Positions 49,264 to 51,888 of a stretch of DNA of 64,000 bases are shown piece by piece. Below the pieces are notes generated by a model. The model was not told the origin of the DNA and did not search any database. It worked only from the letters and a program-made list of their open reading frames with translations. The translations under genes and the position numbers were made by a program. This DNA comes from Lactobacillaceae bacterium (GTDB lineage: Bacteria > Pseudomonadota > Alphaproteobacteria > RF32 > CAG-239), in NCBI GenBank assembly GCA_031271345.1, contig JAISVX010000003.1, positions 357,452 through 421,451 of the forward strand. Reading direction: 5' to 3'. Numbering within the stretch: position 1 is the first letter of the stretch; each line of letters begins with the position of its first letter.

Positions 49264-51888
49264 TTACCAGGTATACCTGACGCCTATATTGCCTGAGAGC
49301 GCTTTAATATTGCCTCCTGTCTCATACATAACATCAGAATATATCGACGCGGCTTCGCTGACCTGCATATTGAAACCGCCGCCGAATTCATAACTCGTGC
49401 CGTTCATTTCCGACTTATATTTCGCGCCGTCATAAATCACATTTGTAGTTCCAGCCCACTCTTCTATTACTCCCGCCTGAACAAACGGTTCTACCACTTT
49501 GTCGCCATAAAGTTTCTTATATCCCAGCTTCAATGATGCCTTTGTTGAAAAAGCGTCTGTGTTGCCATATCTGATATGATTGCCAAAATTGCTTGTAAAA
49601 TTCTTCGCATCGGCATGAGCGTACATCAATTCCACCTTAGGCTCTACCGTCATTATCGCATTGCGGGCAAAGCAATATCCCAACTGCTTGCCGACTTCAA
49701 TACTGTATGCTGTTATCATGCGGTCCAGATTGTATTTTATCGGCAAATTAGAAGCGCTGTAACTGGTTAAATCCAAATCTTCCCAGAAGTTTCTTACAAC
49801 CATATCAACAAACCAGTAGCTCGGCGTCAAGATTGTGCCGTAAACACCGACGCTTACCGCGTCTCCATCACCTGTACCGTCTCTTGCCGAGTTATGCTGC
49901 TTGTTCTCTATGTCATCGCTCTTGACGTAACCCACCATTCCGCCTGCATAAACCTTATAGCCGTTATAATAAAACTTATGATCATATCCAGCTTCAGTAC
50001 CGTATAAAACCATATCGGTTTTTATCTTATCTTTTACGCTTAAATCCTTGCCATAAGATCTTACCCAAATGCCGTCATTATCGAATCCGCTGTTTTCTCT
50101 TAACTCGCCCAGTCTCTTTTGCAGCGAATTCATTCCTGTTTTTGCTATAAATACTATTGCGGTTGGCTCGTTAGCTATCACCTTTGCCACATCGCTAAAC
50201 ACGCCTGTCGACCTCAAATACCATGACTGGGTATCGACTCCGTCCACATCTCCTTGAAACAGCTTGTAGATATAAGCACTGTTATCCACCTGATCACCCT
50301 TAAGACTGAAAACATTATCAGCTATTGTCGTGCCGTTCTCCGCGGATATTATCTTTATTCCATTATTTTCAGGGTCATTCCCGTTGCTGCCCACGACTAT
50401 CGCTTCTATCTTTGTAGAACCGATTACATTTCCGCCGCCGTTTATTACTAACTTATCGGTTAGGCTGGCATCATCGCCAAGCTCCACATTCATTATTATA
50501 TTGCCGTTTGCGCTTACATAATCGCCAACGGTCAATGTATTAAATGCTCCTGAACCGCTGTTGCGCATATCCACCAAGCTGCCGCTGTTTGTTAAGGTTC
50601 CTAAAACAGAAGTTTTTTTCATCGCCCATTCGCTGCTGTTCTCCAGCTTAATATTGTTCTTTGAACCGCTTGCGGATGTCGTATGTCCGCTTATATAAGA
50701 TTTGTCGACATTTATATTTGTTGTCGCCCCTCCAAAAGTATATATTAGCATTCCGCCGAGAGTATAGATTTTACTTCCATTTTTTACATTAATGGTTGAT
50801 ATGCTGGAGTTATTTGCAAATACTGCGTTTGCGTCTTCCATATTAATAACCGTGTTATCCATGTCGAACGCCGCGTTCATAACAACGGCAAAATATGCGT
50901 TTCCCTTGCTGTATACATCCATATTTTTAAATGCCGCAGACGCGCCAGCCGAATTAAACATGCCAAGCACCTGACCGCCGGTATTATTTCTTATCGACAA
51001 GATATTTCTATTTGCGGAACCGATAATGTTCATAGTTCTAACATTCTGAAGTCCGTAGTTTGTCGCTGCCGCCGCAACCGCATTCCCGCTAATATCAATA
51101 TCCATATATTTAATATTAATTTCAGAGTTAGTATATTGAGCGCTATTATATATGCCCCTAAAACCTGCGGCTGTCGAAGTATTTCCCGTAATGTCAAGTT
51201 TATTGGAACCGTTTTCAACTCCCGTAACATTAATGATATTATTTGCACCGCCGGAAGTGCCTATAGCGATTAAATTGTCATACGCTCTGTTACCCTTAAA
51301 CTCAATGCTCATGTTTTCAATATTAATTGTAGAGTTTGCCGCCCGTGTATAAAGCGATATAACACTATTACCGTTTGATATATTGCTGTTAGTTTTCAAC
51401 GTATTCGCGCCGGATGTATTTCCTATTAAATTAACCGTCGAACCGCCATTAATAAGCAGCGCATTCGCAGAACTTCCCGAAGTAGCCGGCATAGTATTGG
51501 ATATATATTCTATATCCATATTTTTTATCGTAAGCCCTACTCCGCTATCAACATATAAACCAGTAACACCACTAGAATTTGATGACGAATTCATAATCAA
51601 TTTTTTGCCATTAGAAGTTCCGCTTATCTCCAGTTTTGAACCAGAATATGCCCTAATACCAAACTGGCTGGTTGATAAGTTCAAATCTCCGCCTGTTGTA
51701 AGTTTCCATGGGTTAGAACCATTTGCCGTTGAAACTGAAACGCCATAAACACTCCCGGAATAAGTACCTCCAGAAGGCAAATCAACATCTCCCGTTATAG
51801 TAAGCGTCGCAGAATTTGCGCTCGCGCAAGAAAGAAAGAAAGAAAGAAAGAAAGAAAGTAATGAGGGCTTTGTTGATAAATTGTTCAT
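49264..51888 (-). CDS. Phase-variable autotransporter (874 aa)
   Basis: AGAGG lies 6 bases upstream of the ATG. The signal peptide (residues 1 to about 24) has a hydrophobic core LSFFLSFFLS made entirely by a tetranucleotide repeat. The passenger is Asn/Ser/Gly-rich, with beta-helix-like turns and PWKLTTGG near its start, shared with the first autotransporter. The linker has SLQKRLGELREN, and the last 280 or so residues form the outer-membrane barrel ending in VRYTW. It is a type V secreted surface protein, probably an adhesin or immune-facing protein. The barrel and the end of the passenger are near-identical to the 23724 gene; the middle passenger differs. The AAAG repeat makes on/off switching likely. 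Confidence 0.92.
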   Translation of the reverse strand: MNNLSTKPSLLSFFLSFFLSCASANSATLTITGDVDLPSGGTYSGSVYGVSVSTANGSNPWKLTTGGDLNLSTSQFGIRAYSGSKLEISGTSNGKKLIMNSSSNSSGVTGLYVDSGVGLTIKNMDIEYISNTMPATSGSSANALLINGGSTVNLIGNTSGANTLKTNSNISNGNSVISLYTRAANSTINIENMSIEFKGNRAYDNLIAIGTSGGANNIINVTGVENGSNKLDITGNTSTAAGFRGIYNSAQYTNSEINIKYMDIDISGNAVAAAATNYGLQNVRTMNIIGSANRNILSIRNNTGGQVLGMFNSAGASAAFKNMDVYSKGNAYFAVVMNAAFDMDNTVINMEDANAVFANNSSISTINVKNGSKIYTLGGMLIYTFGGATTNINVDKSYISGHTTSASGSKNNIKLENSSEWAMKKTSVLGTLTNSGSLVDMRNSGSGAFNTLTVGDYVSANGNIIMNVELGDDASLTDKLVINGGGNVIGSTKIEAIVVGSNGNDPENNGIKIISAENGTTIADNVFSLKGDQVDNSAYIYKLFQGDVDGVDTQSWYLRSTGVFSDVAKVIANEPTAIVFIAKTGMNSLQKRLGELRENSGFDNDGIWVRSYGKDLSVKDKIKTDMVLYGTEAGYDHKFYYNGYKVYAGGMVGYVKSDDIENKQHNSARDGTGDGDAVSVGVYGTILTPSYWFVDMVVRNFWEDLDLTSYSASNLPIKYNLDRMITAYSIEVGKQLGYCFARNAIMTVEPKVELMYAHADAKNFTSNFGNHIRYGNTDAFSTKASLKLGYKKLYGDKVVEPFVQAGVIEEWAGTTNVIYDGAKYKSEMNGTSYEFGGGFNMQVSEAASIYSDVMYETGGNIKALSGNIGVRYTW
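51828..51858 (-). repeat. Tetranucleotide repeat (CTTT)7CTT inside a signal peptide
   Basis: On the plus strand AAG followed by seven AAAG units; on the coding strand (CTTT)7CTT begins after the tenth codon of the autotransporter. In the present length the frame is open. Removing one unit leads to TAA after 11 further codons, and adding one unit leads to TGA after 16, both before the mature protein begins. Confidence 0.93.

Follow-up and report, generated by a model that had tools for sequence, protein, structure and literature searches.

The autotransporter gene and the repeat in its predicted signal peptide

The window, a stretch of 64,000 nt, contains an intact 874-codon gene for a classical (type Va) autotransporter at positions 49264..51888 (minus strand, as are all features of the gene given below). 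The gene has an ATG start and is ON as assembled. A Shine–Dalgarno-like AGAGG (51895..51899) is positioned 6 nt 5′ of the ATG, preceded by a weak candidate for a sigma-70-like promoter, TTGTAA-17-TAAAAT (51926..51954), recognized by consensus match only. A terminator-like hairpin (49232..49258) lies directly 3′ of the stop codon. Genes for a DUF3015 protein and then an Lnb_N/DUF7840 protein occupy positions 51976-54329. The host genome is 1.5 Mb in size, is assembled in 5 contigs with 99.8% completeness and encodes 11 autotransporters.

The 874-residue product is composed of a predicted signal peptide, a predicted passenger and a C-terminal part with two recognized domains. An autochaperone domain (AC_1, PF18883; 4e-20) spans residues 427-543 (50260..50610), followed by an autotransporter beta-domain (PF03797; E 1.1e-25) at residues 607-851 (49336..50070). 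These matches bear out the sequence-only reading of the gene as an autotransporter. The beta-domain is assigned by Pfam match alone, and the barrel is not resolved in the AlphaFold model, where the passenger appears as a series of beta-strands at low confidence (mean pLDDT 42.5, two-sequence alignment).

The protein begins MNNLSTKPSL-LSFFLSFFLS-CASA|NSATL. Its first residues form a putative Sec signal peptide (MNNLSTKPSLLSFFLSFFLSCASA; 51817..51888) with n-, h- and c-regions and a hydropathy near that of the paralogues; cleavage is placed by eye after ASA. A lipoprotein reading of FLSC|A, suggested by the cysteine, was not adopted, since ASA|N makes a good site for signal peptidase I and autotransporters of the classical type are not normally lipidated.

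The most conspicuous element at this locus is a tetranucleotide tract, (CTTT)7CTT, which forms the hydrophobic core of the predicted signal peptide. Reading along the minus strand, the ATG at 51888 begins a 30-nt segment that is followed by the tract (51858..51828) and then by GCGCGAGCGCAAATTC; the triplets immediately 3′ of the tract are GCG AGC GCA. The tract covers nucleotides 31-61 of the coding sequence, corresponding to codons 11-20 and the first base of codon 21, in agreement with the earlier description of a repeat directly after codon 10 that codes for the signal-peptide core. Tandem Repeats Finder reports a 100% match with period 4 over 31 nt. With 7.75 perfect units inside an open reading frame, the tract exceeds the cut-off of at least 5 units applied to tetranucleotides in phasome surveys (PMC5953494), and it is proposed here as a slippage switch.

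Frame dependence and the proposed switch

When reading frames are computed for tracts of 1–15 units, the full protein is obtained at 1, 4, 7, 10 and 13 units only. Loss of one unit (6 units) leads to TAA after 29 codons in total, 11 of them beyond the tract, and gain of one unit (8 units) leads to TGA after 36 codons, 16 beyond the tract. The sequence-only reading gave 11 and 16 codons, values that are correct for a count starting where the tract stops. Its statement that unit changes abolish the protein also survives recomputation, in that changes by other than a multiple of three units truncate it. No ATG, GTG or TTG upstream in the passenger frame would rescue the out-of-frame states at any of the 1–15 unit lengths; ATT codons alone are present.

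These features are consistent with switching by slipped-strand mispairing, which would add or remove 4-nt units at (CTTT)n during replication. Every third tract length (n = 1, 4, 7, 10...) would be in frame and ON, and the remaining lengths would end translation after about 30-40 codons, giving OFF. A clonal population would then become a mix of cells with and without the displayed surface passenger. Evasion of host immunity, evasion of phages and control of adhesion are candidate benefits. Slippage, mixed populations, surface display and selective benefit are all steps that we infer. From the one genome of this species, the tract is read as a translational contingency locus that switches the autotransporter, a reading to which we assign a probability of about 0.78. 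Frame dependence is strict, and the tract sits 5′ in a surface-protein gene that is intact; both points argue for this reading. On the other side, a count of seven is near the bottom of the range for a tetranucleotide switch, which may mean slow switching; the small number of units suggests a moderate rate.

Since the tract is the hydrophobic core, an in-frame step of three units would add or remove one LSFF turn, and the export signal should tolerate such a change. The core is equally hydrophobic at in-frame lengths of 4-13 units, where the maximal 8-residue Kyte–Doolittle mean is 2.24-2.27. This property would also suit a tract whose three-unit steps grade export efficiency, with out-of-frame lengths being purged. 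Single-unit slippage, leading to OFF, should however far outnumber three-unit jumps, and the known look-alikes described below switch on and off, which makes length tuning of this kind very improbable.

An error of assembly or sequencing within the repeat is still harder to credit. Assemblies can mis-size short repeats, but ordinary reads are longer than 31 nt, the reading frame is intact across the tract where an error would break it in two-thirds of cases, and the genome is resolved to the few contigs and the near-completeness noted above.

Rarity of the repeat and its genomic setting

The CTTT tract is far beyond chance. The next-longest period-4 tract in a 464-kb sample of the host genome is 13 nt, and in 3 Mb of simulated DNA (third-order Markov model) period-4 tracts never exceeded 15 nt. 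Pattern searches place (CTTT)4 in a single tract of the 1.5-Mb host genome and (CTTT)4C in one of 152 family genomes, at the autotransporter tract only; a 21-nt version of the tract is present in 1 of 153 genomes of the order. Given the peptide LSFFLSFFLS and the codon usage of the host genome, a perfect repeat would arise by synonymous choice alone with p ~7e-6, indicating that the repeat is a property of the DNA and not a by-product of the peptide.

The closest paralogue lies within the same window (23724..26216, minus strand). It is 56% identical, with an alignment that starts just past the signal peptide, and has an ordinary repeat-free signal peptide (MKKILKIGSISTFCLMFMVKANA). The protein family therefore does not require the tract. 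No comparable tract was found at other autotransporter loci sampled from the host genome and from the nearest, same-genus genome (G001), and the 5′ ends of 58 other family autotransporters contain no tetranucleotide tract longer than 12 nt. The named relatives are metagenome-assembled genomes of uncultured Alphaproteobacteria and ‘Azospirillum sp. CAG:239’, a group that we take to be GTDB order RF32, and many of them come from animal guts (rumen, roe deer, yak, buffalo, reindeer).

Of 80 loci from relatives, nearly all retain the DUF3015–Lnb neighbour pair, and in none of them does the autotransporter gene or mnmA adjoin it. In G001, mnmA is located elsewhere and has no adjoining autotransporter; the contig ends soon past the Lnb gene. 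Judged from this gene order, the autotransporter gene looks like a lineage-specific insertion. One search of genome contigs with the autotransporter protein matched no relative, and scans of viral contigs with the exact flanks of the tract gave no strain variants. Loss of mismatch repair was considered as a cause of the repeat and rejected, one MutS family gene being present in the genome.

The privacy of the tract to one gene in one species, with ordinary signal peptides in paralogues and relatives, would also be expected if a microsatellite had recently expanded, neutrally, at a permissive site to give a tract that is mutable but under no selection as a switch. Repeats of Leu, Ser and Phe are tolerated in signal-peptide cores, which would let an LSFF-type expansion persist, and pyrimidine-rich codons suit a hydrophobic core. 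Such an expansion would nevertheless have to be maintained in an otherwise intact 874-codon gene that two-thirds of slippages destroy, and no comparable tetranucleotide tract has arisen in the 464 kb sampled from this genome or in 0.93 Mb of relatives' DNA. Other simple sequence repeat (SSR) tracts of the lineage, moreover, sit in typical contingency genes, as described below. We consider neutral expansion unlikely, though it is the most serious alternative to a selected switch.

Poly-C/G tracts across the family

Among the 58 other autotransporter 5′ ends, one contains a long homopolymer, C14. This upstream tract prompted a scan of the 152 family genomes for C or G runs of at least 11, which yielded 23 tracts in 14 genomes where about 1 is expected from local C-run statistics. 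The scan gave no C11 run in the genome that contains the window, where the CTTT tract is also unique. A second SSR switch of the types covered is therefore not seen in this species, which counts against the switch reading.

Two of the tracts precede the ATG of PF03797 autotransporters by ~50 nt: a C11 run in L284 (3692-3702; G011:C57) and a C14 run in L285 (3449-3462; G012:C35). The two loci belong to two species of one genus, and their upstream regions are homologous and near-identical around the tract, which differs in length. This arrangement looks like promoter-spacing phase variation. The tract in L297 lies 34 nt upstream of an open reading frame whose N-terminus resembles those of the L284 and L285 autotransporters; this frame has no Pfam match and is cut by the contig end.

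Eight tracts are positioned at the 5′ end of or inside genes with Acyl_transf_3 (L298, L304), WavE (L291), AlgX (L300, and two tracts in L289), GT11 (L288) or TupA-like ATP-grasp (L290) domains. Genes of the kinds listed, autotransporters included, belong to the classic classes of contingency locus. Intragenic tracts occur in L291 (5808-5818, WavE), L295 (5424-5437, methyltransferase), L298 (6392-6402, Acyl_transf_3) and L300 (6109-6119, AlgX), and in all four the long open frames that flank the tract are in different frames, the pattern that an OFF allele would leave in an assembly; L290 has the same frame on both sides. We regard L291, L295, L298 and L300 as candidate phase-variable surface-glycan genes.

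Several further runs were observed. A C12/G12 run in L302 (5932-5943; G104:C67) opens a frame of 1638 codons and is directly followed by a signal-peptide-like hydrophobic stretch; the frame has no Pfam match, and an upstream start lies in another frame. The run in L301 (6371-6381; G104:C42) is inside an open reading frame with a weak match to Dam DNA-adenine-methylase, possibly a phase-variable methylase or a prophage gene. Two copies of a segment near contig ends in G051, L292 (109-123) and L293 (6607-6619), are otherwise nearly identical and carry C15 and C13, respectively, a difference in tract length between repeats within one assembly.

This context strengthens the case for phase variation at the CTTT locus, which is plausible on the sequence evidence. 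We hold with moderate confidence the broader proposal that CAG:239-related gut Alphaproteobacteria run a phasome in which poly-C/G tracts act at autotransporter promoters and in LPS/glycan-modification genes and a tetranucleotide tract acts as a signal-peptide switch, slippage-driven surface variation being a general trait of the lineage.

Comparison with known phase-variable surface proteins

The sequence-only reading had implied that a tract which itself makes up the export signal was new. This does not hold, because AutB, Opa and OipA provide published precedents for both the kind of gene and the placement of the repeat. AutB, an autotransporter of Neisseria meningitidis that is also found in Haemophilus, has AAGC repeats in the DNA of its signal sequence, and AutA and AutB switch on and off by slipped-strand mispairing; meningococcal autB contains 3-19 units and autA 6-40, and switching is expected to be very rare at three AAGC units (PMC5118866). 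The CTTT gene is likewise a classical autotransporter. Its coding-strand unit is CTTT rather than the AAGC that characterizes the Neisseria AutA/AutB family, its host is a gut-type alphaproteobacterium, the repeat itself codes for the hydrophobic core, and the gene is known from one assembly.

Opa is an outer-membrane barrel protein and not an autotransporter. In pathogenic Neisseria, CTCTT repeats in the part of its gene that codes for the leader peptide turn expression on and off by frameshift (PMC3960869). The placement and the use of a unit that is not a multiple of three are shared with the CTTT gene, whereas the Opa unit is a pentanucleotide. The on/off status of OipA (HopH) in Helicobacter pylori is set by CT repeats in the DNA that codes for the signal peptide (PMC6327388). 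This is again a pyrimidine repeat at the corresponding location, with a dinucleotide unit and in an unrelated outer-membrane protein family.

Among the open-licence papers covered by a limited search on SSR switching in Alphaproteobacteria, their uncultured members and gut metagenomes, there was no report for this lineage. The alphaproteobacterial papers found concern BadA, a trimeric autotransporter of Bartonella henselae whose expression is variable and is turned off by frameshifts; recombination, single-base indels or slippage in long coding repeats have been proposed as the mechanism (PMC8859334, PMC10936683). BadA resembles the CTTT gene as an alphaproteobacterial autotransporter, but a short signal-peptide tract is not among its proposed mechanisms. 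Novelty is thus limited to the lineage. To a specialist the mechanism would be no surprise, but the lineage might be one, and so might the poly-C tracts in its surface genes.

Random switching of surface proteins is best known from host-restricted mucosal pathogens. If the proposed switch is real, random on/off variation would also operate in a small-genome, uncultured gut lineage, and counts of AAAG units in metagenome reads already available would measure it directly. The locus would then offer a way to ask whether contingency loci serve commensals as a defence against host antibodies, against phages or against both.
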